Virus record (IMG/VR): IMGVR_UViG_3300035698_022199
Span: 1-27,726 of that record
DNA: 27,726 nt
Direction: 5' to 3' (one strand)
Origin: a virus
In this document: positions 1,304-26,978 of the stretch, piece after piece
Layout of the letters: each line of letters begins with the position of its first letter
Numbering within the stretch: the stretch's first letter is position 1
Notes under the pieces: generated by a model
The model's input: only the letters and a program-made list of their open reading frames with translations
The model's database searches: none
What the model was told of the DNA's origin: nothing
Made by a program: the position numbers and the translations under genes

Positions 1304-1315
1304 TGCCGCCTCCCG

Positions 1316-2017: not shown

Positions 2018-2050
2018 ACATTTTTCTCCTTAAAAATGGTTTCTGCCCTG

Positions 2051-2098
2051 TGACATCGATATGACATCGATATGACATCGATATGACATGGCATGTCA
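2051..2098. repeat. Direct-repeat array with terminal palindrome (iteron/operator-like)
   Basis: The 11-base unit TGACATCGATA occurs three times head to tail (2051-2061, 2062-2072, 2073-2083). A fourth, partial unit opens a perfect palindrome, TGACATG-G-CATGTCA, at 2084-2098. The 11-base period puts every unit on nearly the same face of the helix, as in iterons or multimeric operators. The array fills the gap between the stop of the HTH gene (2096) and the start of the zinc-finger gene (2017). It could be an origin or a control site for the downstream genes. Confidence 0.8.
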
Positions 2099-2818: not shown

Positions 2819-2820
2819 CA

Positions 2821-3947: not shown

Positions 3948-4901
3948 TCACGCGCTGGCGCCCTCTGGTTTATCTACAAGGACCTGACGAATCGTTTTGC
4001 GCCACTGTTTCGAGACGCTTTCCTCCGTCGCCTTGCGTTTGACTTCGAGCCATTTACCGTCGATGATGAAATTGCCGCATACTACGTTGTCAATGCCCCT
4101 GACTGACTTCGTGACAGCCGCATCAGCAGCTTTATATTGTTTTGCGGCCTCGGCAAGTTCCGCCCTGCGCTTGAGAAGCCCTTCAAGTTCGTCGTTGTCG
4201 ATAACTTGGAATCCGGGCCCGTAATTGATATCTTTCAGGCATAGCGAAGAGTATCCACACCTGCCGCAGACAGCCTCGTCGTATTCAATGCGGTCAGGGA
4301 GGGTTTCTTCGGCGATATGGCGGTTGATAGTCTCTGCTTTTTGAAGCAGGTCTTCAACATAACCGAGGTCTAAATCACACCAGATAACCTTTGGCTCGTG
4401 CGTCTGCTTGTTCTTGAGGTACCACACACCGCGCTCGTAGTTGGTACCGAAGAGATAGAGCATAAGCTGTGCGGGATATTTGCGTACCCAGAAACTCTTG
4501 GCGTTGAGCATGTCGTCCATCGAGTTTATCTTCTCCCATGCGAATTGATTCATGCTCTTACATTCGTATGGATATCGCTCGTCGCCTTTTTCGATAACCC
4601 CATCTATATGGCCCGTGATGGCGTACTTTTTGAAAAGACTGTCTTTGATAGCAGTCTCCTGCTGCGTCAGCAGATAGCCCGCTTCACGGAGTTCCTGTTC
4701 CGCTTCATTCTGGATGGTGCCACCTGCGTCGAAGATAAACTGCATGGTGACGTTGTGCAGCAATGCCTTGTCCCATGCCGTCCTCGAATAGACACAATGG
4801 CGAGTACAGGGATGCCCCAGTAAACTCGCACGGTTTGTATTACACTCGAGATGCTTTATTTTTTTCTGTTTCGATGCAATAACGTCTGCAAGGATGTCCA
4901 T
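3948..4901 (-). CDS. Cas4/RecB-like PD-(D/E)XK exonuclease with probable Fe-S cluster, 317 aa
   Basis: The nuclease core is visible: Asp100 in 'GHIDGV', Glu113-x-Lys115 in 'YECKS', and Gln145 in 'AQLMLYL', the RecB-family QhxxY motif. Cysteines frame the core as in Cas4 and AddB: Cys32/Cys36 near the N-terminus and Cys212-x2-Cys215-x5-Cys221 after it. These probably hold a 4Fe-4S cluster. The position where relatives usually have a His ('GxxxH') reads 'GTIQN' here, which is odd. The family trims DNA ends from 5' or 3'. Its neighbour, three bases upstream, looks like an annealing protein, so the pair probably acts like lambda Exo/Bet in phage recombination. A C-terminal helical extension (after about 235) may contact the partner. 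Confidence 0.85.
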   Translation of the reverse strand: MDILADVIASKQKKIKHLECNTNRASLLGHPCTRHCVYSRTAWDKALLHNVTMQFIFDAGGTIQNEAEQELREAGYLLTQQETAIKDSLFKKYAITGHIDGVIEKGDERYPYECKSMNQFAWEKINSMDDMLNAKSFWVRKYPAQLMLYLFGTNYERGVWYLKNKQTHEPKVIWCDLDLGYVEDLLQKAETINRHIAEETLPDRIEYDEAVCGRCGYSSLCLKDINYGPGFQVIDNDELEGLLKRRAELAEAAKQYKAADAAVTKSVRGIDNVVCGNFIIDGKWLEVKRKATEESVSKQWRKTIRQVLVDKPEGASA

Positions 4902-6260: not shown

Positions 6261-6288
6261 ACAAACCTCCTTTCAAAAAAGACCTTAG

Positions 6289-6359
6289 TAGCGGGGGCGG
6301 GACTCGAACCCACATAGGCGGCGTATGAAACCGCTGAGATTCCTTTTCTCAACCCCGCT
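6289..6359 (-). tRNA. tRNA with CAU anticodon (elongator Met or Ile-lysidine type)
   Basis: The minus strand folds as a complete cloverleaf of 71 bases. The acceptor AGCGGGG pairs with CCCCGCT; the D stem is GAGA/TCTC with a GG-containing loop; the anticodon stem is GCGGT/GCCGC with loop TTCATAC; the T arm is GTGGG-TTCGAGT-CCCGC. The discriminator base is A and no CCA is encoded. The paired A1-U72 and the lack of three G-C pairs next to the anticodon loop argue against an initiator tRNA. A CAU anticodon could instead be modified to lysidine and read AUA Ile codons. Position 9 is U, which is unusual. Confidence 0.92.
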
Positions 6360-6670: not shown

Positions 6671-7222
6671 TCATTCGCGGTGGAGTTCCTTCCTATCCTC
6701 GACGGCAGCCAACACCTGCTTTTGCAGTTCAACCACCTTATCTGGGTCGGTTTCCGCAGCGGCACTATTCATAATGTCTTTTATCTTTTTGCTTATTGCA
6801 CCATCGGCCTTTTGCAGCATCATGTAGGCCGCCTGTCCTGATGCAGTAGCTTTAACTCGCGCGAGAACATACCGCCCTATAAAAAAGAGGACCGCAGCCA
6901 GGGCCGCAATCCCTATTGCGATAATCAACCATTTCCAGGGCGTACTTATCTCGGAGAAACCGCTCTTTTTACTGTCAAGGCCGGCGGTATCCTTCGCCTT
7001 CTTTTCGCTTTCGTAATCCTGTGCGCCGGCAGTAACCGTGTTATTGTCGCCCTCGACGCTAATAGGCGGGGTTGTCTTGCCCTTCTCTCTGGCAACCGCT
7101 TCCGAGGCCTTTGATTCATTATAGGCACTCTCAGACTTTTTCGTAATCTCCCGAAAAAACCCGCAGCCGACGACTGACAGAATAAGTGCCAGCATAACAA
7201 GCACTATCATTATCCGTTTCAT
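6671..7222 (-). CDS. Lipoprotein with internal transmembrane segment, candidate unimolecular spanin, 183 aa
   Basis: The chosen ATG at 7222 has a GAAGGAG site and overlaps the giant gene's stop by four bases (ATGA). An in-frame start at 7288 would hide the signal peptide. Residues 1-19 form a lipoprotein signal, with the lipobox VVGC ending at Cys20. A polar, probably periplasmic stretch of about 75 residues follows, then a strong membrane segment at about 97-120, then a charged helical tail of about 60 residues. An outer-membrane lipid anchor plus an inner-membrane helix in one chain is the layout of u-spanins such as T1 gp11, which fuse the two membranes at lysis. The long tail past the membrane segment is atypical. 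A plain membrane-tethered phage lipoprotein is the alternative. Confidence 0.6.
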   Translation of the reverse strand: MKRIMIVLVMLALILSVVGCGFFREITKKSESAYNESKASEAVAREKGKTTPPISVEGDNNTVTAGAQDYESEKKAKDTAGLDSKKSGFSEISTPWKWLIIAIGIAALAAVLFFIGRYVLARVKATASGQAAYMMLQKADGAISKKIKDIMNSAAAETDPDKVVELQKQVLAAVEDRKELHRE

Positions 7223-10200
7223 TTCTTTCTCCTTCTTCTGAGACGATTCAACCTTTCGCCAAAGGCGCTTAAATGGCGGCCGTCCCACCGTTTTGCACTG
7301 TACCCGCGCCGCTTGGCTTCACTTATGAGGAGTTTTTCCAGTTCCTCGAAACTGTACTCGGGCAGATATGTTTCCGCCCGTCGCTGCTGTGCCGCCCTGC
7401 GCTCCTTCCTTCCTGTAAAGGTCTCTTCAGATTCGTCCTTTTCCCGTTTGATAACAGGCGCCGTAACAGAATAAACTTTGTTGCCAATGAAATCGTCTCT
7501 GATAGCAGCAATCTCATCCGGCAGGTTCTTCGCTTTGCTTAACGGGTCAGGATATCGTTCCAGTTGCTTCTTGCCGAAAAAGTTACGGGCAAGTCCGATG
7601 ATATACTTATCTGTCTTGAACCGTGCGTCTCGGTCAGCCGTGTCTGGCGCCAGCTTGCGGATGTCCTGCATGAGTTTTTTATACTCGCCTGCCTTGCGAT
7701 ACTCGTCTTCAAGTCCTGCGGGGAGGGTATCGCGCTTACGGCCGCTGTTGTACTGCTGCTCGAGTTTTGCTGCCTTGTCGTAGAATTCGTCAACCGTTTT
7801 TGAGTAGTCTTTGCGGAACAACCAGCCGCCGACGCCTGGATAGTCTGCCGGGGCGTAGTTCTTGCCACCCTTAATAACCGCCTCAGCGGGCTTTACTACG
7901 CTCCTGAACAGTCCACCTGACGCGCTGTCGATAAAGTGCTCCATCTTTGCGGGGCTCCAGTTGAGGTAATCGCCCATCGCGGTAATAAGCGCCGTATTGT
8001 AGGGGCTTCTCTGGTCACGAGGCTCAAGACGCGCCAGCCTGTCAGAAACGATGGGCTGTCCGCGCCAGATGTCGCGGCCGGAGAGCGCCTCAAAAGCAGG
8101 CGTCACTACCGACGGCCTTATGCTGGGAAGCGTCTGGTCGATAAGCGTCTTAGCGTAAGCCTTAAATATTTTCGGGTCCCTGTCGGCAATCGTGTTCATA
8201 ATCCCCTCGACACCCGAAGCTATGGTCCAGCCCCATTCAAATGGACGCGGTATGCGTATAATCGGTTTGCCGTTATCATCGGTAATAGTCCAGAAACCGT
8301 ACTTGAGCCAGTCGGGGGCCTCCTGATACCAGTCCTCGTCCCTCTTTCTCGCCGTATAGGCCATTTGGACGGCAGCGAAGGAAAGCGCCAACAGCATCGT
8401 CCTTATGAGCTGGTCACGCCACGTTCTGGCGTACTTGTCCACACTCTCTATCGGTGCATTGAAGAATGGACTCATCCGGTTTACCCATTTGCCAACATAG
8501 CCCTGCCGCTTGAAGTTCACGGTAACGTCGCCGGCGGCGTTTGCCGCCTCAATCAGCGCATAGGCGGGCGGCATATCCCCGCTGTTAATCCGTTCTTTTG
8601 TATAACCGTATGCCTCAAGAGCAGCCCTGAACTCGGCAAGGCGCGGCCCCACCTCGGAGATACCGATAATGGCCCGCACGGCGTCTATCGGGTGCGTGAC
8701 GATGTTCAGGAGCCGACGCTGGGTCGAATCAGCAAGAACCCGCTCCACCTCTTTCCGGATTGCCTTCCGGTCGAGGCCGAGTACAAACGATAACTCTCCG
8801 CCCATTGCCTGAAAGAGTTCAACAGTCGGGTCGCCCTTTTTGCCCAGAAGGTGCATTGTTTCTGAATAACAATAAGTCAACACCATCTCGCCAGGGGCAT
8901 AAATGCTTTTCAATCCCTTAGCGTATTTCTTCTGGAAGATATAGGTAAAAAAGTCCCTCACGGGGTTTTTGGTACCAAACGTCAGGTTGAGGCCTGTCGC
9001 TCCAAGTTTAACGAGGCGTGTTCCCTTGCCGAAGACTATATCGAGATACCCCGGCAGCGTGAAGAAGTTCATCCCGTTGACCGACCGGAAAAGTTCCTTA
9101 TCAAAACGGTACATGACAGGCTTGCCTCGGTCGAGCACGGCCCCGATGGGCTGGTCGCCCTTATAAAAGTAATCGGGGCTGAAAACAAAGAGCATCTGGG
9201 TAAGAAGGTCGCTCCACGCATTGTCGGGGATGTCTTCGCGCACATCGTCGAAATTAAAGCCGGGGATTGTTTTTTCGATGGCTTCCTTCAGTTGTCCTGA
9301 AATCTGTTTCACGGAAAATATTGTCTTGTGCATCTGCGGCGAAACGCGGGTTATCCATCCGCCCATGCCAGGCGTTCTTCTCGCAACATTGACAACGGCG
9401 TTAAGAACCTTCTGCCGCGCTGCGGCCTCATAAAAGCGGACTGTCCGTTCTATCGTCGATACAATAGGGTCGATAATTTGCAGACTGGAGCCCTTTCTGT
9501 GGTGAACGAGTTTCGCTGCGTTGATAAACTTCCTGCCGCCGAGTCCGCGATGCGTTACCTTCTCCCTGACACGCATAAGCGGGATATAGGTGGCAAACTT
9601 ATTCTTAATGGCCTGCGCTGAATCAAAGGTTATACAGCCTGCGTTGGCCAGCATGTCAATAAGCGCGTTGTTAAAGTCGGTAATCGTCTTTGCCGCCTTC
9701 TCCCACGTAGCATCACCCTTGTGTTCTTCATAGACCGCGCGGGCATCAAGAAGGTCGCAACCGGGGTCAATGCCCAGTTCAATCGCCTCTATCGCATGGA
9801 GGGCATAGAGCCATGTTACGAATTCCTCATACTCGGAATGATGGATGTCCTTAAAGGCATCCATAAGGGACGGGCCGAGTTTTGTCGTCAAGTCGCCCAT
9901 AGAGAATACGCCATCGTCAATCGCCCGGCTGGCAAGTGTCGGACCTGTCTGCGTCAGCGCCATATAGATGGCATATGGCATATCGCCTTTTTCTGCTTTA
10001 TAGCCGCGCTTGATGGCCTCTTTCTGGAACAGGTTAAGGAAATGCCCCTCGTCCTTCACGGCGGTATAAACCTTGTCCACCTGCTCGTGCAGGGCATCCT
10101 GCATCTCGTCACGCAGCGTTACACCCTGCGGACGTTCAGGTTTACCCGTGCGGCTGATTTGAGATGCAAGGCGCTTCTTCGCCCCCTGCTCTTTCCACTG

Positions 10201-13200
10201 GTCCACGAGTTTCTTCACCGTCGCAATCTTCTTGCCGATTTCGGGATTCTCAATCAGCCATTCCTCTGTAAAGAAACGATAGGCGCGGGGCGCCAGCGAT
10301 TGCACGTCTGCGTCCTCGGTTAGGAACATGCGCAGGAACTCCGCAAAGCCCTCGCTTGTCCTGTGCTGTTTCGGGTCGTAATCAAGCAACTGAAGTTCGG
10401 CGATAGCCTCATCCGAAAACTCGTTGGTAATGGCGGTTATCTTGTCTATGTGGTGCGCAACCTCATGGGTGTTGGCAGCCAGGCCGCCTTCATACGGTGC
10501 CCTAACCATAATTGATTCGTCGTGCGGCCGGTATATGCCGGCATACTTGCTCGGGAGGCGGTCGTTGGTGATGGGTACGTTAAAGAGTTTCGACATTGTG
10601 GCGATAATGGATGCGGCCGAGAGCGGATTTTTGCCGTCCGACTTGCCCTTTTCTCCCCTGCTGACGCGCATACCAGGCGTTGAGTCATTGCCGCCCATAG
10701 CCTGCTCTTCGGTATTGAGATATTTCAGGTTCGCAACCGGCCGGTACTCCGTAACATTGCCGAATACCTCAGCGGCCTTTTTGCCGACAGGAATAAAAAA
10801 CCTCGTTTTATACGCTATCCGCTCGACAATAACGCCTTCGCGTCTAAGCGCAGCAATATCTGCCGCCTGCGGGCCGACAAGTTCCATTCGCTGCTTGCCG
10901 TAGATAACAGCGTACCTTATAAGCCAATCGTTAGCTAACTCAGCCTCGAATTGGCGGTTAAGAATACCGGTGATATATTCATCAGCCGAGAGTTTTTCCT
11001 CGCTTACGTCCGCATTGAGATTTCTCAGGACACTCTGCAGTTTCGTCGGCGGGATTACTCTTCCAAGCAATATCTCGCCGCTATCAAGCTGCAAGCGGTA
11101 CACCCGCATATTATTAGACCCGAGCCTGTTCCATATAGGTAAAAGCGTCCCTGTTATCAGATGCAGGACATTTGCTTTGACCTTCGGGGCGTTTTCGACC
11201 GCCGCGTCCCAAAGGATTCTGGCATCTTCTTTCGTTAGCTTTTTCCATCTCGCCGCGTCCCCTTCGACGCTGCTGTCGATATTAGCCCTGTCAATATAGT
11301 GGTTATCGGTCTGGTGCGTAAGCCGGTACTGTTCTATCAAGGCGCCCGACTTGCTGTCGGTCCGGTTGAGGCTTGTAACGCCTGCGTACACAATGCCGCT
11401 TTGGATGTTCTGCACAAAGAACTCAGGGTTGCGCTTCGAGCCGAGACCTTCTCCGTTTTGTACGTCCTCCCATGTGATAGGCTCTACGCTATTTTTCGTT
11501 TCGAGTTTCACATATTTTGTTTCGGCCCCTGTCTTTTCATGCGTATAAACCACCTGTTCGCTCTTCTTCGTGATGCTGTCGGCCTTGTATGTCTCGACGC
11601 CCTTGTCCAGGTGCCCCTTTCGTTCTGCAATAATGTGCGCCATGTTATGCCGCTCCGCGAACAATTCAAAAAGTTCGTTCTGCACGTCGATTCGCATACC
11701 GAGGATACGGTTCATAAACTGTTTCACTTCGGGCAGATGGTTGAGCATATTCCCGTCTTTGTCGGTGAGTTTCAACTGCGTTATGTCTTGGAAGCGAGTA
11801 ATAGACCAGGCCGACACTACGCCATTATACAAATCGCTGAAAAAGTTTTCCAATGCGGTCTGCGCAAGGCGAGTCCCGATATTATCTTCATCGTTGAACA
11901 GTCCTCCGGTTTGTGCTGCCTGCTGCCCCCTTGTCAACGCGCCAAGCTGCGCAAGGCGCTGCGCTATCGTCGATATAAAACGGCGGTGGCCTGCGATGTC
12001 GGTTGTGCATAAGAAGTATTTCGGCGCAAATGCCTGGGCCGTGCGGTGCGTCCGCCCTAATCCCTGGATGGCGTGGCTTGCTATCCACCCCGCTTGCAAA
12101 AGATAATGATAGCGCTTGCGCTGGTTTTTACGTTCAACGCTTGCATGGTAACTCGCCCCAGTGCCCCCTGCGTCCGAGAAAACGAGAATCTGTTTCTCAT
12201 CATTCATAAAGGCCTCGGCCTCTTCGAGCCGTCTGCTCAATGGTATTTTGACAAACTTCTTTTCCATCTCGCCCATTTCGTTTTCCACTTCGGCCAGCTT
12301 GTGTTGGCGCCCCGTGACCTCGGCAACTTTATCTGCCCCGAAATGGTTTACTATCATGTCGATGGGTGAATCCGGCATAGAGATAGCGCCTATTTCCGTC
12401 ATAAGCGCCTCTTTCATTGCCAGCGCTTCCTGGTTAATCCTCACCGTGCCGTCTTCTTTGACAGATTGCATCCATGCCGGCTCCCCTGTATTGGGGTCAG
12501 TTCCAAGTTCGTACTGGTGAATCGGGAAGGCGGCATCGACGTATCGAAGTAATATTTCCCTCGGCGTCAAGTCAAACTCATCAAGCGACAAACCCTGCGA
12601 CTCAAGGCGCTGCTGCTCCCTCTTCTGGCTTGCCTCAAGCGTATTGGTAAGCTGGATAACGGCCGCCCGGCCCTCTTTCAAGTCCTCCTCGATGTGCTGT
12701 ATCACGGATGGAACCATCAGAGCCGTCAATATCTGGTTGAAAAACCGCAGGTTGTCTCCTCTGAACCGCTGCATCGCACGGCCCTTTGCCTGCGAGTCTT
12801 CATTCTGGTGGGTTGATTCCAGGGCTGCCTCAAGGTTTTCATACACAACTGTCCATGCGTCTGCAATCTTATCGAAATTGTAACGCTGGTTACTGGTCAG
12901 CTTGTGGTAGAGCCGTTCAAACTCGACGGTTCCTTCGGGTGTCCCGTCGTTGTAACTGAGCGTCCGTGAGTTCATCAGCCCCATTGCCTTCAGGTCTCGT
13001 GCTACATATTCCATCGCTGCCAGCCCGCCCGACGAGATATCAGTAACAAAGGTCTGCGCAGTTGGAAAAGCCGTCCCCTCGCCCCATAAGCCAAGCCTTG
13101 TGGCATACCCGAGGTTTGACACCTTTGTCGCCGCAGTCGCGCTTGTATAGAGAATACGGGCGTTAGGCAGACCGTTCTGGAGCCTAATGCCGGCGAGTGC

Positions 13201-16200
13201 CTGAGCGGACGGCTTTTTCGACCCCCGTGCTCCCCTTGTTGTAAAGGGGTTCCCCATGTTGTGCGCCTCATCAAAGACAACAACACCGTCATAATCAGGG
13301 CCCAGCCAGTCTATAATGGTTTGTACGCGGTCTATCGGGTTTCTCTTTTGGGTCTGGGTGTTGCCGGGCTTCGGTTGGGAGCCTCGCAGGGCAGAGTATG
13401 CCGTGAAGACTACGCCTTCTTCAACCGTAATTTTGCCCCGTTTAGCTTTGAATTTCTCTTTTTGGTTATATACCTTCTTCGTATCGAAGCCAAGAGCCTC
13501 GAGGTCGCGTTTGGCGTCTTCGATGAGACCCCATTTCTCCGATACCCATACCGCCTTTTTTCTGCCTCTGTTCCAGTTGTCGATGATAACGCCGGCTATC
13601 ATCCTGCCCTTGCCGACGCCTGTACCATCGCCGTTGAGGTAGCCCTGCCTGCGCTCGACCCCGCTTGCGTCTGGCGGCAACATCTCTTCCATCGCCTGCC
13701 CCGCATAGACAAGAAACTCAAGCTGCGCATCCGATAAGAGGCCCTGCTCAATAATTTTATTGTCTATCTTAGGCTTATAGGTAGGCTCAAGGGGAACGAC
13801 CGTCGCCATAGCGGAAGATTCAACCAATGCGCTTGGATGTGGCTTTGCGCCTTTAATCTTTACTCTTGCCGGATGATACGACTCGAAAATAACGTCCTTA
13901 ATCTCCTCTTTTTTCTCTTCGGGTTTGGTCTCGTCATACTCCACTTCCTCTTCTTTGGCAAAGATATTGTTAATATTAATCTTTCCCATTTCGTCAAGGG
14001 ATGTAAGTTCATGCCTGAAACTATCCGAATCTTCCGATAAATAGATTTGTGCGTAGGCGGACTTCAAGTATATTTTAATATGTTCGCCCATCGCGTTGAC
14101 TAACTCCTGCGACCACTTGCCGAAGGCACGGGTCCCGGCTTTGGCGTAAAGCGTCCCTATCCGAATCGTTTTGGCCAGTATTGCCGGGTCGAGGTTCAAT
14201 GACAGGCGGTTTTTGAAGTCTTCTCGGTTTTCCTCGAGGAGTTTTTTGAGTTCTGCCTGCTCTGCCTCGGAGAGGTTTTTTTCAATAATGGTCTTTTTCT
14301 TCTTTTTCTCTGGCGGCTTATCGACGTCTTTTTTCTCTTCAGGTGCTTCTGGCGGCTTCTGCTCTTCCTTGTCCACTTCGCCCGGTCGGATTCTGGCGCT
14401 TCTTACCTGGCTCCCGCGATAGAGCACATCTTCGGCCTTCTCTAATGTTTCAACAACAGGTGGGTTTTCTATTGGCTTCGCCTTGTCTATAACAAGTATG
14501 CGTGTTGGGAAGGTGGTGCCGTATTTCTTATATATGCTTCTCGGCATAAAGATGTTTGCCCTAAACCGGTACTGCTGCTTTACTTTTATGAGCCACTTGC
14601 TGAAAGTTTTGGTTTCCTCGCCATTCAACGGCGCTGCGATAACGGCAACAAGGCGTCCGTTCTTAGCCAGTGCCCGCAGTGCGGCGTCGATATGGTTCAG
14701 GTCGGTTCCCGGAATCTTCTTCTCGCCGAGGCGGGTACCCGCACGACTGAACGGCGGGTTCATTATGACAACCGTCGGCGTCGGGATATCCTTTTCAGCG
14801 GCGAGGTCATTATCTATCTGTTCGGCATCTTCGCCGAGAACATGGGCGTTACGGAAAAGCGCCTCGAGGAGTTTTTTCCGGCCGGGGCTTATTTCGTTCA
14901 CAATGAGGTCTTTTGCCCCCATTTCTCCGAAAACTGCTAATCCTCCGACACCTGCGGACGGCTCGAGTACAACGTCGTCTCCCAGAATATTGGCAAGCCA
15001 TGCGACAAGATAGGAGTAATGAGGCGGGGTGGAAAACTGTTGGAGAAGGTCTTTTTCTCCGCTCCTGTTTGTCTGTGTAGGAAGCCCTTCCACTAATTTT
15101 TCCAATTCCCGATATAGCGACACATAGCTTCTGGTATCTCTCGGGTCTGGGACTGTTTCCTTCAAGTACAGATTAAGGGCAAGTTCCAGGGCGTCGTAGG
15201 CGTCTGTCGGTCCGTATGCCCCCTCTGCCGCTGTCCCGCCAAAATGCTTGTCGGCCAGTTCAAACAGCGCGGCATTGTCCATCGGAACAAGGGTTTCTCC
15301 GAAATGTTTTCTAAGGATTTCACGGGACAATGCTATCTGCTTCTTTGCCTTTTCGGTTTCGGCGTCGTCCGGTTCTTCCTTCTCTTCGGGTTCTTCTGTC
15401 TCTTCCTCTGGTTTATCCTCGGTTTCTTCTTCTGTTTCTTCTGGTTTGTTCTCTGTCTCTTCCTCTTCTTCGGGCTTGTTTTCGTCCTTCGGGGTAGTCT
15501 CGGTTTCTTCGGTTTCTTCTTCCGGCATCATTTCATAGGTATATTTCCGGTCCTCCCCCTCAACAGGGCGGGCCATCCTTTTGCCGTCGGAGATAAGCAC
15601 GTTTTCAGGGAATACATTCCCATCAACCGGAAGGCTATATTCGTACTCCTGCCCGATAATGCTATCGAGGTGCTCTTTTGACGTTGTGACAACAATCCTT
15701 CTGTCATATTCACCGCCAGGCTGTAATGCTGAAATATCCTTGCTGAGGACTTCAACGTCCTCTGCTTGAAATGGCAGCTTGCTCAGTGCAGAAGCAATCT
15801 CGATGTTTACTTTTTTCCTATCGATGTCCTCAAACCCTGGCTTATCCCTTTGTTCTCTCAGTGTTGAATGGTTTTTTCGTGAGTCCGGCTTAACCATATC
15901 CAAATCCCACGCAAACACGTTAAGTTTTCTTTGGTCCTGTGTTGAGCGCGTATTGTAATAGATGTATTCCGTGTTGCCGACTGTTTGCAGGTGCGGGCCG
16001 TCCTCGACATACACATGTCCTGTGTTCTGCTGCGCTGATTGCATACCCTTGTCGCGGAACATCACCTCATCGCCGGGATGAAACGCAGGGTGCATTATCT
16101 CGTGTTTGATAAGCCGGTCGCGGTCTTCCCTTGACAGGTTCAAAAGGTCGCCCTGCCTTATGTCCCTAAGACTCTTCGCCTTTTTGATACGGCGCTCTGA

Positions 16201-18666
16201 CCTTTCTTTGTAGGTTGATTTTTCCCCCTCCGGTTTCTTCTCTTCCGGTTTTTTTATCTCGGGCTTGTTCTCTTCTGGCTTTTTTATCTCAGGCTTGTTC
16301 TCTTCTGGCTTTTTTATCTCAGGCGCCTCTTCAGGGCCTTTAGTAACCTCGGTCGGTGTAGTTGGTGTTGTAACGTCCTCTTCGGCTTCAGGTTTCGACT
16401 CGGCGCGTTGCACCAGTTCAGCTTCGGACAGGATGCGGCTTCTTGCGATAACCGTAACCGCCGAGTAACTCGGAGCCCACTGTAACGAAACGCCGCTTTT
16501 TTCCTCTTTATCTTCCAGTTCCCGCTGGAGAATCACTGATTTCTTCCGTGGCGCCCCAGTTGGACCAATCGGCTGTCCGTCAACATTAACGAGCGAGTTC
16601 CCATCCTCGGAAACCTGCCAGATGCCACCCTTTGAATCTTCAAGCATGTCTCCGGGGGCAAGGTTTTGCCCTATCGCATCGGCATGTGCAAGCATATCCT
16701 CGGTGATTTTTGCCAGCTTACCATGCTTTTTCTCCCAGTTATAGGCATAGCCCCGGTCTTTCGGGGCGTCCATGAACTTTTTGCGGTGCTTGAGATTTTT
16801 GACAAGTTCAGCCCGTTCTTCTGCGGACCACTTCCCTATCTTTAATTTACGCTCAATGGCCTTCTCGAACTCCTCAAAGTCTTTGCGGCTCGGCCCATCA
16901 TTTTCCATCAGTTTAGCTGCTGCTTCCGGCCAGAGTTGGAGCGCTACTGTTGCCCCCGGTTTTGACAGGAGCAATCCCTTGTTGCCCTCGAGCAGGGCAA
17001 TAGCAACCTTGCGCTGCGCAGCAGTGTACTGTATAAAGCCTGGGGCCATCGGGATGGCAAACGCGATTGGTTCGACGATAAACGCCTGCTGCGCATCCGG
17101 TATCGCCTCAATCAGCCTATTAACGACGGTATTCCTGTCACCCTTCAACTGCGTGGGGTCAATGCCTATTACGGCGCCCATTGCGTCTCTCAGCCGCTCT
17201 TCGCCAATTTCGCCAATCAGACCGTGATAGCCGTACTCTTCAAGCCCCTTACGGAGACTCATACCATGCCCGCCGGCTTTCCATGCCTTCCCAATTGCCT
17301 TTACTAAAATCGCCCCGACCTTTGTCTTCCCCGCAAACTTAGCGCCAGCTTTGCCGACAGCGCCGCCGGCTTTCATCATCGTCCCGCCGGCAACCTCGGA
17401 CATTGCCTCTAAGACTGTGGCCGTATAGCCTTTGGCGAGTGCCTCAGCCGGTCCCATTCCTTTCTCAATAATTTTAATCTTGCCGTTTACAATATCAAAG
17501 ACCTTTGGCATCTCCTTCTGCGCCGCAGTTTCGGCCGTCATTCCAGCCATGCCGGTTCCAGCCCTCACCACACCGCCTGCCGTCCAGCCTGCGGCACCGG
17601 CAAGTATCTTAGCCGCTGCACTCGCGCCGTATTTACCGGCGACCTTCCCGATGAGTTTCCCGGTAACAGCCCTTGTCCCTGCGCTTGCGCCACCGGCAAT
17701 GCCGGAAGTGAGCATCATCGAGGCAGCATAGGGAACCATATTCGCCAGGACATCGTGTACCTTTGCGGGGATGGTCTGACCACGCATCTGGAGTTCAATG
17801 GTCCGCTTGAGGAAACTTTCAAGTACCTTATTTATCTGCATCCGCTGGCGGTCGGACATCATTACGCGCCCTTCCGTCTCAAGCTGGCGATACTTAATCG
17901 CATTGTTCGCTCTTCTAACATCGGACATCAAGCCGCCCATCACGAGGATGAAACTCATTCGGTCCTTGCCCTTGATATTTTCCCAGAGACCGATTTCACC
18001 CTTATCCGCCTGGCGTTTAGCCTCTTCCTGGAACTTCATTTGGTGGTATATTTCGGCGACCTGCGGGTCGATGGTTCGGGCAAGCGCCTCCGCCCTCATC
18101 CCCTCTTCGTCGTCGATAAGGTCTTTCATATGTTCTGAAAGAAACTCCGGCGGCGGTATGCGATGTCGTTTGTAATAATCGGAGATATTGCGCAGGGATA
18201 CACGCGGGGGAAGCCTGTCATTAAACAGCCCAGCGCCTTTTGTAGCCCCGGTTATCTCTCTGTGAAACGTCCCCAAAAGCCATTGCCTGAACTTCTTTTT
18301 ACCCTTCTTCGCCCCATATTTTTCTATATATTCCTTGTGCTTTTTCCCCGCCGTTTCCATCTCTTCTCGATGTTCGCCTATGTATTTTCCTACGTCTTCA
18401 TCGGGAACAGTATAGGGCCGCAGGTCAGCCGGCCCATTGTTGAAGGACAGTTTACGCCCAAACATTTTTAATCCCGGCGATTCAAGCAGCCAGCTATCGT
18501 CGCCGAGGTCAAGGCCTGCTATTGAGTCGATTTCGTCTATCTTATCAGCCTCATCAAAAACACCCTTGAACTTGTTGAAGATAGCGTCGTCTATTTCGTC
18601 TTCCCTGGCTTCCGGTCCCAGTATGTCTGGAAACTTCTCTGCAAGCAGGGCATCTATGTCTGGCAT
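7219..18666 (-). CDS. Giant polyvalent virion protein: methyltransferase, Strawberry-notch helicase, zincin and LPD38-like regions, 3815 aa
   Basis: Likely packaged and ejected with the DNA to protect or establish the genome. Domains in order: a charged N-terminus; a Gly/Ala-rich hydrophobic region (about 305-470) that could span membrane; a Pro/Lys/Glu repeat linker (about 782-815); an acidic linker (about 1046-1102); an N6-adenine-type methyltransferase with EPSAGVGG at 1235-1242 and NPPF at 1303-1306; a Strawberry-notch-type SF2 helicase with Walker A Lys1686 (GTGVGKG), DEAH 1799-1802, SAT 1842-1844, then 'GGTGASYH' near 2169 and 'GRTHRTAQ' near 2206; an HEVAHH zincin motif at 2734-2739 followed by 'SEGFAEF'; polyvalent-type helical regions; and an LPD38-like tail with 'NPVRDF' near 3234 and 'MSPFFNAPIESVDKYA' near 3400. 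Phage P1 DarB also pairs a methyltransferase with this kind of helicase and is an injected antirestriction protein. The ATG at 18666 has an AAGGA site. The key motifs look intact. Confidence 0.9.
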   Translation of the reverse strand: MPDIDALLAEKFPDILGPEAREDEIDDAIFNKFKGVFDEADKIDEIDSIAGLDLGDDSWLLESPGLKMFGRKLSFNNGPADLRPYTVPDEDVGKYIGEHREEMETAGKKHKEYIEKYGAKKGKKKFRQWLLGTFHREITGATKGAGLFNDRLPPRVSLRNISDYYKRHRIPPPEFLSEHMKDLIDDEEGMRAEALARTIDPQVAEIYHQMKFQEEAKRQADKGEIGLWENIKGKDRMSFILVMGGLMSDVRRANNAIKYRQLETEGRVMMSDRQRMQINKVLESFLKRTIELQMRGQTIPAKVHDVLANMVPYAASMMLTSGIAGGASAGTRAVTGKLIGKVAGKYGASAAAKILAGAAGWTAGGVVRAGTGMAGMTAETAAQKEMPKVFDIVNGKIKIIEKGMGPAEALAKGYTATVLEAMSEVAGGTMMKAGGAVGKAGAKFAGKTKVGAILVKAIGKAWKAGGHGMSLRKGLEEYGYHGLIGEIGEERLRDAMGAVIGIDPTQLKGDRNTVVNRLIEAIPDAQQAFIVEPIAFAIPMAPGFIQYTAAQRKVAIALLEGNKGLLLSKPGATVALQLWPEAAAKLMENDGPSRKDFEEFEKAIERKLKIGKWSAEERAELVKNLKHRKKFMDAPKDRGYAYNWEKKHGKLAKITEDMLAHADAIGQNLAPGDMLEDSKGGIWQVSEDGNSLVNVDGQPIGPTGAPRKKSVILQRELEDKEEKSGVSLQWAPSYSAVTVIARSRILSEAELVQRAESKPEAEEDVTTPTTPTEVTKGPEEAPEIKKPEENKPEIKKPEENKPEIKKPEEKKPEGEKSTYKERSERRIKKAKSLRDIRQGDLLNLSREDRDRLIKHEIMHPAFHPGDEVMFRDKGMQSAQQNTGHVYVEDGPHLQTVGNTEYIYYNTRSTQDQRKLNVFAWDLDMVKPDSRKNHSTLREQRDKPGFEDIDRKKVNIEIASALSKLPFQAEDVEVLSKDISALQPGGEYDRRIVVTTSKEHLDSIIGQEYEYSLPVDGNVFPENVLISDGKRMARPVEGEDRKYTYEMMPEEETEETETTPKDENKPEEEEETENKPEETEEETEDKPEEETEEPEEKEEPDDAETEKAKKQIALSREILRKHFGETLVPMDNAALFELADKHFGGTAAEGAYGPTDAYDALELALNLYLKETVPDPRDTRSYVSLYRELEKLVEGLPTQTNRSGEKDLLQQFSTPPHYSYLVAWLANILGDDVVLEPSAGVGGLAVFGEMGAKDLIVNEISPGRKKLLEALFRNAHVLGEDAEQIDNDLAAEKDIPTPTVVIMNPPFSRAGTRLGEKKIPGTDLNHIDAALRALAKNGRLVAVIAAPLNGEETKTFSKWLIKVKQQYRFRANIFMPRSIYKKYGTTFPTRILVIDKAKPIENPPVVETLEKAEDVLYRGSQVRSARIRPGEVDKEEQKPPEAPEEKKDVDKPPEKKKKKTIIEKNLSEAEQAELKKLLEENREDFKNRLSLNLDPAILAKTIRIGTLYAKAGTRAFGKWSQELVNAMGEHIKIYLKSAYAQIYLSEDSDSFRHELTSLDEMGKININNIFAKEEEVEYDETKPEEKKEEIKDVIFESYHPARVKIKGAKPHPSALVESSAMATVVPLEPTYKPKIDNKIIEQGLLSDAQLEFLVYAGQAMEEMLPPDASGVERRQGYLNGDGTGVGKGRMIAGVIIDNWNRGRKKAVWVSEKWGLIEDAKRDLEALGFDTKKVYNQKEKFKAKRGKITVEEGVVFTAYSALRGSQPKPGNTQTQKRNPIDRVQTIIDWLGPDYDGVVVFDEAHNMGNPFTTRGARGSKKPSAQALAGIRLQNGLPNARILYTSATAATKVSNLGYATRLGLWGEGTAFPTAQTFVTDISSGGLAAMEYVARDLKAMGLMNSRTLSYNDGTPEGTVEFERLYHKLTSNQRYNFDKIADAWTVVYENLEAALESTHQNEDSQAKGRAMQRFRGDNLRFFNQILTALMVPSVIQHIEEDLKEGRAAVIQLTNTLEASQKREQQRLESQGLSLDEFDLTPREILLRYVDAAFPIHQYELGTDPNTGEPAWMQSVKEDGTVRINQEALAMKEALMTEIGAISMPDSPIDMIVNHFGADKVAEVTGRQHKLAEVENEMGEMEKKFVKIPLSRRLEEAEAFMNDEKQILVFSDAGGTGASYHASVERKNQRKRYHYLLQAGWIASHAIQGLGRTHRTAQAFAPKYFLCTTDIAGHRRFISTIAQRLAQLGALTRGQQAAQTGGLFNDEDNIGTRLAQTALENFFSDLYNGVVSAWSITRFQDITQLKLTDKDGNMLNHLPEVKQFMNRILGMRIDVQNELFELFAERHNMAHIIAERKGHLDKGVETYKADSITKKSEQVVYTHEKTGAETKYVKLETKNSVEPITWEDVQNGEGLGSKRNPEFFVQNIQSGIVYAGVTSLNRTDSKSGALIEQYRLTHQTDNHYIDRANIDSSVEGDAARWKKLTKEDARILWDAAVENAPKVKANVLHLITGTLLPIWNRLGSNNMRVYRLQLDSGEILLGRVIPPTKLQSVLRNLNADVSEEKLSADEYITGILNRQFEAELANDWLIRYAVIYGKQRMELVGPQAADIAALRREGVIVERIAYKTRFFIPVGKKAAEVFGNVTEYRPVANLKYLNTEEQAMGGNDSTPGMRVSRGEKGKSDGKNPLSAASIIATMSKLFNVPITNDRLPSKYAGIYRPHDESIMVRAPYEGGLAANTHEVAHHIDKITAITNEFSDEAIAELQLLDYDPKQHRTSEGFAEFLRMFLTEDADVQSLAPRAYRFFTEEWLIENPEIGKKIATVKKLVDQWKEQGAKKRLASQISRTGKPERPQGVTLRDEMQDALHEQVDKVYTAVKDEGHFLNLFQKEAIKRGYKAEKGDMPYAIYMALTQTGPTLASRAIDDGVFSMGDLTTKLGPSLMDAFKDIHHSEYEEFVTWLYALHAIEAIELGIDPGCDLLDARAVYEEHKGDATWEKAAKTITDFNNALIDMLANAGCITFDSAQAIKNKFATYIPLMRVREKVTHRGLGGRKFINAAKLVHHRKGSSLQIIDPIVSTIERTVRFYEAAARQKVLNAVVNVARRTPGMGGWITRVSPQMHKTIFSVKQISGQLKEAIEKTIPGFNFDDVREDIPDNAWSDLLTQMLFVFSPDYFYKGDQPIGAVLDRGKPVMYRFDKELFRSVNGMNFFTLPGYLDIVFGKGTRLVKLGATGLNLTFGTKNPVRDFFTYIFQKKYAKGLKSIYAPGEMVLTYCYSETMHLLGKKGDPTVELFQAMGGELSFVLGLDRKAIRKEVERVLADSTQRRLLNIVTHPIDAVRAIIGISEVGPRLAEFRAALEAYGYTKERINSGDMPPAYALIEAANAAGDVTVNFKRQGYVGKWVNRMSPFFNAPIESVDKYARTWRDQLIRTMLLALSFAAVQMAYTARKRDEDWYQEAPDWLKYGFWTITDDNGKPIIRIPRPFEWGWTIASGVEGIMNTIADRDPKIFKAYAKTLIDQTLPSIRPSVVTPAFEALSGRDIWRGQPIVSDRLARLEPRDQRSPYNTALITAMGDYLNWSPAKMEHFIDSASGGLFRSVVKPAEAVIKGGKNYAPADYPGVGGWLFRKDYSKTVDEFYDKAAKLEQQYNSGRKRDTLPAGLEDEYRKAGEYKKLMQDIRKLAPDTADRDARFKTDKYIIGLARNFFGKKQLERYPDPLSKAKNLPDEIAAIRDDFIGNKVYSVTAPVIKREKDESEETFTGRKERRAAQQRRAETYLPEYSFEELEKLLISEAKRRGYSAKRWDGRHLSAFGERLNRLRRRRKK
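16231..16320. repeat. Three 30-bp tandem repeats inside the giant gene
   Basis: The units are 16231-16260, 16261-16290 and 16291-16320. The last two differ by one base and the first is more diverged. They encode a 10-residue PEIKKPEENK-type unit that forms a flexible linker ahead of the enzymatic half. The near-identity of two copies points to recent slippage or unequal recombination. Confidence 0.85.
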
Positions 18667-18688: not shown

Positions 18689-19717
18689 CTATTGATGCGC
18701 TTTAGCTGCTATAATTTTATTCATACGACGGATACTCAATGCTGCTTGTATTCCCCGTGGGTCGGTCGTCTCGGAAATGAGGGCTACTTTCCGTAATTCG
18801 TCCCGATAGGTCAACTGTTCTTCTTCCGTCCACTCTTCAGGAGGACTATCATTCGGAGGCGGGACTTCTTCTTGCGCAACTTCTTCCGGTGGGAGTTCTT
18901 CCTGCATACCTTCTTCAGGAGGCGGTTCCTGCTCGTCTCCCGCCGGCGCCTGTTCGGGCATATCATACGGCAGGGCAGCCTCAACAGCATCCCATATCTC
19001 CTGGACGGGCGTTGCCAGCACTTCCTTTTCATCATCGTTAGTGGTCTTGTAGGCTTCCACAAGGGTCTTAAAACGGTCGTTCCTGAGTTTGTCTATGTCG
19101 TTGCGGTGCTCCCTGGCATCAAACTCCTTCTTGACGGTCCCGTTTTCGGAGACGCTGTAAACATTGCCGTACTTGTCGGTCGTGGTGAAGTCCTCCGCGT
19201 TAAGCTGTTTCTCCGGCTGTACCGATGTCGGAACACCAAGCATCTGTTCATATATCCGCTTGGCGGCGACCTCCTGCTCTTGCGGGGAGAGCATCCCGTC
19301 GGCATTCTCACGGATGAGGCTTAGTTGTTTACGCATGGCTCCAATCCTGCGCTGGCTGGCGTCGTCATAACGCCGACTCGCTATTTTCTCTTCATTCTCC
19401 GCCTGCCAGCCCACAAATGAGCGCTTCTGCTCGTCTTGCAGGTTGAGGCGGTTCTTGTAATCGGCCTCCTGCTGCTTGTTGGCCGCGTCCCGCATCTGCA
19501 TCGTGCGGCTGAAGTTCGTGTCCGACGCCTGCTGCCGGAAGTTGTTCAAGAGATTGTCGCGGTCTCTCTGCACTTGAATCTGCCGTTCCATGCGCTGCTG
19601 TTGCTCAATGCGTTTCCGTTCCTCGTCTTTGCGCTTGCGCAGTCTTTCGTCTTTGCTTATCCGGTACTGCGAGGTAGCAATCGCCTCAACCGGTTCGTAT
19701 CCTATTCGTATTCCCAC
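18689..19717 (-). CDS. Coiled-coil probable internal virion protein, 342 aa
   Basis: The GTG at 19717 follows a GGGAGG site and lies 15 bases after the preceding stop. Residues about 20-130 are extremely rich in Lys, Arg, Glu and Gln with heptad spacing, giving a long coiled coil. A middle region of mixed helix follows, then a Pro/Glu-rich acidic segment (about 250-298) and a final helix. There is no signal peptide or membrane segment. It sits directly before the giant polyvalent gene and after another Gln/Lys-rich protein, the usual position of ejection or inner-core proteins in short-tailed phages. The role is inferred from composition and place. Confidence 0.6.
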   Translation of the reverse strand: MGIRIGYEPVEAIATSQYRISKDERLRKRKDEERKRIEQQQRMERQIQVQRDRDNLLNNFRQQASDTNFSRTMQMRDAANKQQEADYKNRLNLQDEQKRSFVGWQAENEEKIASRRYDDASQRRIGAMRKQLSLIRENADGMLSPQEQEVAAKRIYEQMLGVPTSVQPEKQLNAEDFTTTDKYGNVYSVSENGTVKKEFDAREHRNDIDKLRNDRFKTLVEAYKTTNDDEKEVLATPVQEIWDAVEAALPYDMPEQAPAGDEQEPPPEEGMQEELPPEEVAQEEVPPPNDSPPEEWTEEEQLTYRDELRKVALISETTDPRGIQAALSIRRMNKIIAAKAHQ

Positions 19718-19732: not shown

Positions 19733-20464
19733 TTAAACGGGTTGCATTCCTATTGCCGGCCGCCGGCGCCGCCTTGACTGTGTGGTCGGGTTCAGGGCCG
19801 AGACACCGCCATAGCGACTGCGTGTTGCCGTCTGCGGATTTAAGGCCGAGACACCAAGTCCAGTCCTGCGAGTTGCCGTCTGCGGGTTCAGGGCCGAAAC
19901 GCCGCCGTAACTCGGCGGCATCGTGTAGGGATAGCGATTGCCTTCCATCTTGCCATACCCCGAGGCCAATCCCTGCATGACATCCAGATTGGGGTACACG
20001 TCTTCCCTGCGTTCCATAAAACCGAGGGTGTCACCGCTCATGCTGCCGTAGGTATTGAGGCGCTGCTGTTGAAGCGACTCTGCCAGCCGAGCCTGGTCTT
20101 CGCTCTGCCCCCTTGTGTAGGCGTTCTGCATCGTCGGCATGACGGTTGTGCCGCCGAGTCCCTGGTCAACAAGGCCCTGCATCCCCTGCGACTGTCTGCC
20201 GCTCCAAAGGGACTGGATGTCGGCCTTTTGCTGTGCGCCGTAGCCCTTGAGCATCCCCATCGCTTCTGCCTGCCGGTTGCGGTACCCGGCAAGTATCTCT
20301 TTGTATCGTTTGAGATTCGCATCTTTTGCCTGCCCGTAGGCGTCTTTATAGGAGTCAAGGAACGACTGAAACTTGCCGTACCGTGCGTCCTTCGCCGCCT
20401 TCCGGCGCTTCGAGAAATCCGCCAGCGATTTATTGTTCGCTTCAAAAATCTGTGCTATATTCAT
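19733..20464 (-). CDS. Probable internal virion protein with C-terminal repeats, 243 aa
   Basis: The first 90 residues form Lys/Ala-rich helices. A Gln/Gly-rich middle follows, then three copies of a 16-residue unit centred on GVSALNP, ending in an Arg-rich stretch (RRRRR) and a short tail. The start ATG overlaps the preceding stop by four bases (ATGA), so it is translated with the sugar-transfer genes. Helical Gln-rich proteins just before the coiled-coil and polyvalent genes resemble small ejection proteins of podoviruses. The basic repeat tail could bind DNA or anchor the protein in the virion. I recognise no named family. Confidence 0.6.
   Translation of the reverse strand: MNIAQIFEANNKSLADFSKRRKAAKDARYGKFQSFLDSYKDAYGQAKDANLKRYKEILAGYRNRQAEAMGMLKGYGAQQKADIQSLWSGRQSQGMQGLVDQGLGGTTVMPTMQNAYTRGQSEDQARLAESLQQQRLNTYGSMSGDTLGFMERREDVYPNLDVMQGLASGYGKMEGNRYPYTMPPSYGGVSALNPQTATRRTGLGVSALNPQTATRSRYGGVSALNPTTQSRRRRRPAIGMQPV
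19765..19908. repeat. Three 48-bp tandem repeats in virion protein gene
   Basis: The segment encoding GVSALNP recurs with an exact 48-base period; its anchor sequence (G/A)TT(C/T)A(G/A)GGCCGA begins at 19790, 19838 and 19886. The outer limits given are approximate. The repeats encode the C-terminal 16-residue units, and copy number may vary between related phages. Confidence 0.75.
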
Positions 20465-24316: not shown

Positions 24317-24505
24317 CTAACTCCCTGACGAACCAAGTGCGTCTATCTCCGCCTGCATGGCGTCAATCTTCTCTTTCAGTGTCATTGTGCTGTCGTAGGC
24401 TATATCCGCTGCGCTGATAGTCCTGAAATTGTGTTCGGTTATCTGCAATGCCCGGACAAGTTCTGCCGCGCCACTTCCCGCTGGTTTAACCGGTTTCAAT
24501 GTCAT
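24317..24505 (-). CDS. Small helical virion-operon protein, 62 aa
   Basis: It begins with a Lys/Pro/Gly stretch, then amphipathic helix ('AAELVRALQITEHNF' and 'LKEKIDAMQAEIDAL'), and ends in Gly/Ser. Its start overlaps the nozzle-like gene by 20 bases and its stop lies two bases before the Ser-rich gene. The size and composition fit a small tail or head-tail accessory protein, but nothing specific is recognised. Confidence 0.6.
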   Translation of the reverse strand: MTLKPVKPAGSGAAELVRALQITEHNFRTISAADIAYDSTMTLKEKIDAMQAEIDALGSSGS

Positions 24506-26978
24506 TAGTGCAACCTCTGTTTCTGTATCTGCCTATGACGCTGGTCATTTTCTCAACTGCCCATGCCTGTCGTGCGGTTGCATTGCTCAGGCGAATCAGC
24601 ATCGAGCCGCCTCGGGCACGGGGCCTCATCATGTAATTCAGACCCTCCGAAACCGTATAGGTCTTAAAGGTAGCTGCTTTTGTCAGCTTTTCGTGCGTAT
24701 CCGCCACAATAATCTCGCAGCTTATATCCGCCGAGTTCTCCGTCAGCGAGACAAGCAACTCGAGTAGTATTCCTGTCGCATAATCGCTGGCGCCAAGCCG
24801 TATCGGGCCGTAGTCTATGCGCGAGGAGATAATTTCACCGTCGTCGTCCTCGTAGCGGTCGCGGGCTTCCCTGATATAGCCGTCTCTGCCGCCGAGAAGC
24901 GCCCCTGCGTTTTCCGTAGCCCATGACTCATGGTAGAGGACTGCCGTAGGTTCGTGGTCGTATGGTACCTCCACGGGCCAGAATGAGCCGGTTTCAATGT
25001 CAAACCAGATATGGCGCTGAGTTCGGGCGTCTTCCGGCGTCAGATATATATGGATGCCCCTGTGTCGCAGGTCATACATAAGGGCAACGGTATAGGACTC
25101 GGTACTAACATCCTGAAGCATACGCGGCATCTTTTCCTTGCTGATGGACTGCGGGTATCCCCCTGCACCAGGTACAAGCATGTGCATCCCGTCCCTGGCG
25201 AGAAAATAGGTCTCCCCCGCAGGGCCCTTGCACCATGCTGCCCGGTCAACAACGCCCGAAACATAACTGAGGTTATCAAGCCGGCCTCCAGCCGCAGGGT
25301 CTCCGCGCATAACCCAAAGCTGGTATTCGCAGCCGAAAAGAAGATAATCGTCGGAATGAGGCATAATGGCTCGTATCGGCTGACCGAGGCGCCCTGCGTC
25401 TGCCGTTGTCCCTGCAACCGCCCGTTGCACGTCGGTTGCAGCAGAGCCGTAATCAAAATCGAGTGGGTTTCCCTGGCGGCTCATGTAATAGACATGATTC
25501 TTTGCCAGGACTAAACGGTCTCGGTAGAGGGCAATAACGGGGCATCCGGTAGGTACCTGCCCCTTCGGGTCGCCGTCGTCGTCGTCTTCCGCCTGCCACA
25601 ATTCCAGAATATCGGTTGCCGGCGTATAGACCTTCGGTCCGCGTTCAATGGAGTAAGAGCATGAGCCCTCGCCTACCTCACCGTCAAGGGTGAGCGTATC
25701 GCCGACTATGCTGGTAATTTTGTATGTTCCTGCTATCGTATCCCCCATCACATTGGAAATAACTACGAGGTCGCTGTCAGTGTCGATGTCGAGCGTTTCC
25801 CAATCAGCCACGGATGCCGCTGTCAATTCGTTGTCAGTCTCGGTGTCTCCGCTGCTTGAGCCGCCGCTTATAATGCCGTCTGTGCCGCTTACCTTCGGCG
25901 GTCCGAAATCGGCAATGTAGAGAGCCTGCGTCCGCTCCGCCGCCTGAATAAGCCGGTCTGAGGCAATCGTCGCGTCGGTATCCACCAACTCCATCTCCCT
26001 GATGAACTCCTCTTTGTAGAGTTTGCCGCCGGCGCTTGCTATCAGAATACGGCGGTTTTTTTCAACCGTGTCGCCGCTGTTGTAATACTGTATCATAAAG
26101 GTGTCGGCGAGGCATATCCCGCCAGCATTATCGCATTGTATCCCGAAACCGAAGCGAGGACCCGATGTCATGGATGAGACATTCCGATTGAATATGAGGC
26201 TCCCGCGCCAGTACACCTTGATGTTGTTGGTGGTGATAAGCATTGTGAACCATCCGCCCTTACCCAGACCTGTCGTGCCGGGCGTGAAAGCGCGTTCAAA
26301 ACTTGTCCCGATAATGGCGTTCTTGCCCCAGAGTCTTCCGTAATAGGCGGTACTGCCAGTTGTCGGAAGCGTCAGTTCGGCCATGAGTCCCCTACGGGTA
26401 TAGTCGGGGTTGTCGTCGTCCATACGAGCAAAGATGCGGTATTTTCCGTGGTGCTCCTCCATCCACGGGGCGATATAGAGGCTTATGCTGTACGGCTGCG
26501 TGAGGTCTATCGGCAGCGATTCACGGACGGCGGCGACATCGGTCAGGTATTCAACGTCCTCTATCGGCGGTTGTATCACGGGAGGTCGCTGGTCGTTCCA
26601 TGCGGCCTCAAGCCATACATCGCCGAGGACGTTCCCCTCAAAGGTATCCATCCAGTATTCATAGCCGTCAGTGCTCAGGGTTGTGACGTTTGCCATCATA
26701 CGGATTGGGCTGCCGAGAACAGGGTCCGCCCCGCTGTTGCTGTCCGATTCGCTGCTACTGTCCGACCCGGACGAGTCCTCTTCAGCGGCAGCGCCGAGGC
26801 GGTCGTAGGAATATTTTCCTAAACCAGGACGGCTTCCTCCACGGGTTCGCCCCTCAAGAGACCCATCCGGCCAGACATTTTTGGCAAAAGTGGTGGTGTA
26901 CGGCGGTTGCTGTCTATAAGCGAACCGCCGGTCTAAACCACCTAACGGGAAGTGTATGTCACGCAACACCTTTTTCAT
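24486..26978 (-). CDS. Tail nozzle/DNA-stabilisation-like virion protein with inserted LamG-like domain, 830 aa
   Basis: The N-terminus 'PLGGLDRRFAYRQQPPYTT...FAKNVWPDGSLEGR.RGGSRPG' (about 11-52, split) is a pattern I know from phage tail-hub proteins. After a Ser/Asp-rich linker (about 66-84) comes a beta-rich region (about 100-320) with 'GKYRIFARMDDD' and 'NIKVYWRGSLIF' that resembles a concanavalin/LamG domain. The second half is a chain of beta strands with 'VIALYRDRLVLAKNHVYYMS', 'IRAIMPHSDDYLLFGCEYQL' and 'FDIETGSFWPVEV'. These are propeller-like blades as in P22 gp10 or T7 gp12 type nozzles, which close the portal and hold the DNA. The ATG at 26978 overlaps the previous stop by one base. 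Confidence 0.7.
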   Translation of the reverse strand: MKKVLRDIHFPLGGLDRRFAYRQQPPYTTTFAKNVWPDGSLEGRTRGGSRPGLGKYSYDRLGAAAEEDSSGSDSSSESDSNSGADPVLGSPIRMMANVTTLSTDGYEYWMDTFEGNVLGDVWLEAAWNDQRPPVIQPPIEDVEYLTDVAAVRESLPIDLTQPYSISLYIAPWMEEHHGKYRIFARMDDDNPDYTRRGLMAELTLPTTGSTAYYGRLWGKNAIIGTSFERAFTPGTTGLGKGGWFTMLITTNNIKVYWRGSLIFNRNVSSMTSGPRFGFGIQCDNAGGICLADTFMIQYYNSGDTVEKNRRILIASAGGKLYKEEFIREMELVDTDATIASDRLIQAAERTQALYIADFGPPKVSGTDGIISGGSSSGDTETDNELTAASVADWETLDIDTDSDLVVISNVMGDTIAGTYKITSIVGDTLTLDGEVGEGSCSYSIERGPKVYTPATDILELWQAEDDDDGDPKGQVPTGCPVIALYRDRLVLAKNHVYYMSRQGNPLDFDYGSAATDVQRAVAGTTADAGRLGQPIRAIMPHSDDYLLFGCEYQLWVMRGDPAAGGRLDNLSYVSGVVDRAAWCKGPAGETYFLARDGMHMLVPGAGGYPQSISKEKMPRMLQDVSTESYTVALMYDLRHRGIHIYLTPEDARTQRHIWFDIETGSFWPVEVPYDHEPTAVLYHESWATENAGALLGGRDGYIREARDRYEDDDGEIISSRIDYGPIRLGASDYATGILLELLVSLTENSADISCEIIVADTHEKLTKAATFKTYTVSEGLNYMMRPRARGGSMLIRLSNATARQAWAVEKMTSVIGRYRNRGCTNDIETG

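Follow-up and report, generated by a model that had tools for sequence, protein, structure and literature searches.

The linear IMG/VR virus record IMGVR_UViG_3300035698_022199 was analysed over its full length of 27,726 bases, which is called the window here and is probably a fragment of a genome. A single open reading frame (ORF) on its minus strand encodes a polyvalent protein of 3815 residues, referred to as the giant, and takes up 11,448 of the 27,726 bases (41%). A first-pass annotation of this DNA had described one gene of about that share, and the frame is indeed uninterrupted through all 3815 codons, with a ribosome-binding-like AAGGA directly upstream of its ATG. Promoter-like and terminator-like sites in the window were no more frequent than expected by chance. 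The giant joins an adenine methyltransferase, a Strawberry-notch ATPase, a zincin and an LPD38 module (Table 1). Module-by-module comparison with relatives divided it into pieces of different history, and by its sequence it is a mosaic of a plasmid-type enzyme pair and a podophage ejection-protein scaffold, with the zincin at the joint.

All the motifs cited in the first-pass annotation were found, namely EPSAGVGG (residue 1235), NPPF (1303), GVGKG (1683), DEAH (1799), TSAT (1841), GRTHRTAQ (2204) and HEVAHH (2734). The combination of several unrelated enzymatic domains (methyltransferase, superfamily 2 (SF2) ATPase and zincin) with an LPD-type domain in one ORF is that of the polyvalent proteins of Iyer et al., the type to which the giant had been assigned.

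Methyltransferase and Strawberry-notch ATPase

A DNA methyltransferase PHROG matched the first enzyme (E=1.5e-7), the Pfam match was under the cutoff (MTS, E=0.06), and a family profile of 22 sequences matched type I M subunits in the PDB. QFSTP, EPS.G and NPPFS are invariant across these 22 sequences, and the domain carries the TP motif and NPP(Y/F) of the EcoKI/TaqI-like gamma-class N6-adenine methyltransferases. Its predicted structure resembled class I methyltransferases, among them StySJI M and further type I M proteins. The adenine-methyltransferase-like domain proposed earlier is thus supported. The model shows helices ahead of it, and FGGT.AEG is conserved, but no Pfam profile matched for LPD36, the domain that lies N-terminal to the methyltransferase in methylase-helicase dyads.

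The ATPase belongs to the Strawberry notch family and is complete, as had been claimed, with 336 bits for AAA_34 (cutoff 27) and 264 bits for Helicase_C_4 (cutoff 30.5). Taken together, the methyltransferase and Strawberry-notch families were recovered by profile matches in Pfam, PHROG and the PDB. Both Pfam and the model place an SF2 helicase of the SWI2/SNF2 clade C-terminal to the methyltransferase. This is the arrangement of the polyvalent DNA methylase-helicase dyad, for which Iyer et al. (2017) proposed the architecture and a translocation-methylation scheme (PMC5512222). None of the catalytic motifs varies among 18 dyad sequences. The dyad was modelled by AlphaFold from 18 sequences, with a mean predicted local distance difference test score (pLDDT) of 73.5, the methyltransferase and both ATPase lobes being mostly confident. 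The top matches of the model in the PDB were SWI2/SNF2 double-stranded DNA ATPases (Chd1, Snf2h, RapA and Sulfolobus SWI2/SNF2). Among predicted viral proteins, A0A516LLA2 matched the model over 1059 columns with 28% identity (E=4e-68), and therefore at least one deposited viral protein shares the dyad arrangement.

Table 1. Modules of the giant and candidate virion genes beside it, with positions in the window
Feature	Residues	Position	Strand	Remarks
Giant polyvalent protein ORF	1-3815	7219..18666	-	3815 residues; ATG start, no internal stops
Gly/Ala-rich N-terminal domain	273-637	16756..17850	-	phmmer E=3.7e-18 to L002; common to this nearest relative only
Acidic, low-complexity linkers rich in P/E/K, flanking an unmatched stretch	650-1130	15277..16719	-	No match among the relatives fetched
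N6-adenine methyltransferase, type I HsdM-like	1133-1420	14407..15270	-	QFSTPP, EPSAGVGG and NPPF all intact
Linker between methyltransferase and ATPase	1433-1590	13897..14370	-	Modelled as disordered, AlphaFold pLDDT mostly <50
First ATPase lobe, AAA_34	1609-1932	12871..13842	-	E=2.1e-100; GVGKG, DEAH and SAT inside
Second ATPase lobe, Helicase_C_4 (Strawberry notch C-terminal)	2101-2359	11590..12366	-	E=2.8e-78; GRTHRTAQ inside
End of dyad module	2400-2640	10747..11469	-	Common to phage giants and most plasmid dyad proteins, 27-41%
Zincin core, HEVAHHID ... EGFAEF	2724-2789	10300..10497	-	Asp 3 residues after HExxH
Podophage C-module	2868-3440	8347..10065	-	hhalign to HTVC204P gp40
LPD38	3444-3596	7879..8337	-	Pfam E=1e-27
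342-residue coiled-coil-like protein, candidate internal virion protein		18689..19717	-	Directly upstream of the giant; from position and composition only; no family match
243-residue protein, candidate internal virion protein		19733..20464	-	39% identity over 126 residues to one of the small L002 proteins upstream of the L002 giant
830-residue candidate tail protein		24486..26978	-	31% over 375 residues to the L002 late-operon tail-like protein

Distribution of the dyad

As one unit, the dyad (residues about 1130-2640) occurs in plasmids, in the giants L002-L018 of viruses and in bacterial contigs assembled from metagenomes (L030-L035), some of which are incomplete. It was found in about 18 uncultivated viral contigs. 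In 50,697 deposited phage records, at the sensitivity of tblastn, no locus covered 80% of the dyad, and the matches were to the methyltransferase alone or to a very remote helicase. The plasmid records matching it numbered 642, of which 405 cover at least 80% of the dyad; by mobility typing, 304 of the 642 are conjugative and 82 mobilizable. In a tree of 25 dyads, the window grouped with L002 and L003 (support 100/99), and the tree implies six or more switches of the virus label. The dyad has therefore been transferred repeatedly among phages, plasmids and other settings. By sequence comparison, the dyad of the window belongs to the plasmid-borne Strawberry-notch lineage.

On the Azospirillum plasmid p7 (L040), the dyad gene has a type I-E CRISPR-Cas operon on one side and a gene for a phosphorothioate-dependent restriction enzyme on the other, which suggests a possible role of some plasmid dyads in defence islands. 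Bacteroides phage BS-TP4 (L029) has an ORF of 5391 residues adjoining its portal gene, with remote similarity to both the methyltransferase and the Strawberry-notch lobes; it may be a distant relative, one whose host is in culture.

Zincin, C-module and late-gene context

The zincin of the giant has the HExxH motif, an Asp three residues downstream and a Glu on the next helix. Iyer et al. described this position of the Asp as a feature of one widespread phage-type zincin (PMC5512222). No Pfam zincin profile matched the giant, and the motif noticed at first reading was confirmed by alignment, HExxH...E being kept in eight sequences (the window, L002, L003, L013, L018, L033, L021 and L022).

The C-module aligned by hhalign with gp40 of Pelagibacter phage HTVC204P (probability 100, E=1e-53) over 720 columns that extend into LPD38, and the LPD38-like tail expected from the first reading matched the Pfam profile. 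A hydrophobic segment had also been proposed in this tail; no stretch of membrane grade was found there, and the sole stretch of the giant above the threshold is at residues 527-547. Relatives of the C-module and LPD38 occur at 22-25% identity in proteins of Vibrio, Shewanella, Bacillus and Pelagibacter phages. The N-terminus of the giant showed no detectable homology to the N-termini of the HTVC204P, Vibrio 1.211 and VvAW1 proteins. The C-module profile gave nothing significant against the PDB, including T7 gp16. No fold search was made with its AlphaFold model (residues 2640-3815, 7 sequences) because the model was too poor (pLDDT 46).

The gene for HTVC204P gp40 follows those for capsid, tail tubular A/B and internal virion proteins, and in ct8d5349 the genes ahead of the homologue are of the same kinds (capsid, tail tubular A/B or stabilization, internal virion protein). 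Head, tail and ejection genes come before the homologue in Vibrio 1.211 and VvAW1. The gene order in L002 is terminase (E=3e-15), a 606-residue protein, major head protein (E=7e-6), a tail-like protein, two small proteins and the giant, and in L013 an internal virion protein (phrog_511, E=5e-49) is two genes ahead of the giant. A P22-type portal was found in seven dyad-bearing records, a T7-type connector was above the cutoff in one relative only, and Terminase_6C was found in no relative. The late-region proteins of the L003 contig gave no PHROG match. The late placement is thus clear in L002 and in the podophages sharing the C-module, and in the window it is seen only through two neighbours resembling L002 proteins. 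The podophage-like context claimed at the outset is supported through this gene order of the relatives.

Similarity of the 830-residue protein to tail tubular B was not significant, and that identification was rejected. Scans of viral contigs with the C-terminal part of the giant and with the 830-residue protein, which depend on short exact peptides, retrieved no relatives.

Other genes of the window

All the following genes are on the minus strand. Three genes at 20461-23020, located between tail-like and internal-virion-like genes, resemble sugar-modifying enzymes: one matches Glyco_transf_4, one a sialyltransferase PHROG, and the third has no family match and is glycosyltransferase-like by eye. 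A 199-residue frame at 23715-24314 contains long repeats of Ser-Asp and of Ser-Gly/Glu, and its C-terminus is rich in Cys. A tRNA-Met(CAT) gene at 6288-6359 separates the operon of the giant from recombination-type genes. A Cas4-type exonuclease (phrog_1990, E=5e-27; 3948-4901) and a VRR-NUC endonuclease (796-1170) are recombination genes without a CRISPR context. Two adjacent genes at 2096-3090 share the near-identical protein start MVWWNKVKVFF.RG.EWEDSAG; a direct repeat of 93 nucleotides with 84% identity records a local duplication there, and the longer copy has a weak helix-turn-helix/excisionase match.

Discussion

Iyer et al. already described methylase-helicase polyvalent proteins, zincins and LPD38 as a phage-only domain (PMC5512222). 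They noted "a few instances" with a Strawberry-notch ATPase; the one that they name in the text is a protein of Methylomonas, and their main text names no phage or virion example of this type. This was the only paper found in our literature search for strawberry notch together with bacteriophage. What is new here is the phage side of the family: a plasmid-lineage Strawberry-notch dyad within LPD38 ejection-type giants of uncultivated podophage-like viruses.

The first-pass annotation had compared the giant with P1 DarB, an antirestriction protein of 2255 residues, as combining the same two activities. This holds in part. In DarB, as in the giant, one large protein carries an N6-adenine-methyltransferase-like domain and, after it, an SF2/SNF2-clade ATPase, but the DarB ATPase matches SNF2-rel_dom and Helicase_C, not AAA_34 and Helicase_C_4, and a Strawberry-notch helicase in DarB was rejected. 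In DarB, LPD38 was not detected by Pfam and there is no HExxH, and hhalign of DarB with the dyad was weak (probability 25). The P1 Dar proteins have been reported to be co-ejected and protective (PMC12810830). We therefore regard the giant, by analogy, as DarB-like in its class of function, with an enzyme pair that belongs to the plasmid-borne Strawberry-notch lineage.

Podophages have DarB-like giants as well. Vibrio VvAW1 gp1 (3640 residues) has the methyltransferase, helicase, zincin and LPD38 in the same order as the giant, and its gene follows an ejection gene. BcepIL02 gp70 (4667 residues) shares the methyltransferase, helicase and LPD38 and has in addition an SLT transglycosylase and LPD3. 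The helicases of both match SNF2/ResIII/Helicase_C profiles, unlike that of the giant. In Skulduggery gp28, Helicase_C_4 scored 28.5 bits, just under its cutoff of 30.5, so that the SNF2-type and Strawberry-notch groups are not fully distinct. The 4515-residue DarB-like gp69 of podophage JC1 was detected in virions with 51 unique peptides (PMC9144972).

The two halves of the giant are also found apart. Proteins of conjugative plasmids, for example Thioflavicoccus pTHIMO01 and Methylotuvimicrobium MEALZ_p, have the same pair, with 41-45% identity across both enzymes, and some plasmid dyad proteins have an HExxH downstream and a gene next to the relaxase gene. Unlike the giant, the plasmid proteins gave no match to the C-module or LPD38, and their delivery, if any, would be by conjugation. 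HTVC204P gp40, ct8d5349 and Bacillus Page gp20, encoded in the late region, have a homologous C-module and LPD38, but they are of 1253-1679 residues and have neither the Strawberry-notch dyad nor a zincin motif at the aligned place.

Taken together, the data make it probable that the giant is a podophage polyvalent protein which is packaged in the virion, ejected, and protects the entering DNA in cis by translocation-coupled adenine methylation. Its C-terminal LPD38 module puts it in the group of internal (ejection) proteins. From the gene order and the relatives, we presume that the packaged giant would enter the cell together with the phage DNA. The methyltransferase and the SWI2/SNF2-clade ATPase would act as one machine, the ATPase travelling along the incoming double-stranded DNA while the methylase modifies it, and this methylation would hide the DNA in cis from restriction, chiefly by type I enzymes. 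Lying between the dyad and the C-module, the zincin probably cuts the chain and frees the dyad; peptidase-mediated processing of polyvalent proteins was proposed by Iyer et al. (PMC5512222).

Several points weigh against this interpretation. The helicase family of DarB differs from that of the giant, so that the function is assigned by analogy. A folded target-recognition domain cannot be made out in the dyad model, as residues about 1433-1590, between the two enzymes, are mostly of low pLDDT. Portal, capsid and terminase genes are not recognisable in the window, and its podophage nature therefore rests on the relatives. Several relatives (L004, L005 and L007) have the enzyme pair but no zincin, so that cleavage cannot be a requirement of dyad action and the zincin is an accessory. 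This phage and its Strawberry-notch-type relatives are, moreover, known from genes alone.

This last point also favours a giant that is not ejected but is made in the infected cell, where it would methylate or remodel progeny DNA before packaging, or act on superinfecting phages or host defence; the methyltransferase is similar, too, to mad2, a defence-system methylase. The giant gene, however, adjoins candidate internal virion genes, and the DarB-like JC1 gp69 is a virion protein (PMC9144972), so we consider a purely intracellular role unlikely. It is highly improbable that the giant is an ordinary structural or ejection protein with vestigial enzyme domains. Its large size and the poor conservation of its N-terminus and linkers would fit such a protein, but all the catalytic motifs are intact and conserved in distant relatives.

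The ATPase might instead be mainly a DNA-entry motor that pulls the phage genome into the cell, with methylation secondary or simultaneous. The T7 genome is pulled into the cell by transcription or by internal proteins. A translocase fused physically to an ejection-protein C-module, with the modelled fold of a double-stranded DNA translocase, would suit this task. On the other hand, conjugative plasmids, whose DNA is moved by type IV secretion, carry the same pair without the C-module, podophages exist with the C-module and no ATPase in that protein, and the C-module has no detectable similarity to the solved T7 ejection proteins; an entry motor thus seems quite unlikely. We give little credence to a combined possibility, in which a podophage ejection protein would have taken over a methylase-translocase of the plasmid lineage, active during entry: the giant, fixed at the site of injection by its C-module, would reel the genome in with the Strawberry-notch ATPase while the methylase marks the DNA, so that entry is coupled to immediate protection.

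Conjugative plasmids and podophages share one problem, as unmodified DNA enters a new cell in both cases. The methylase-translocase pair is seen here as an interchangeable cartridge of the two, and the idea of DarB-like protection by translocation-coupled methylation gains a concrete candidate in the phage Strawberry-notch type.
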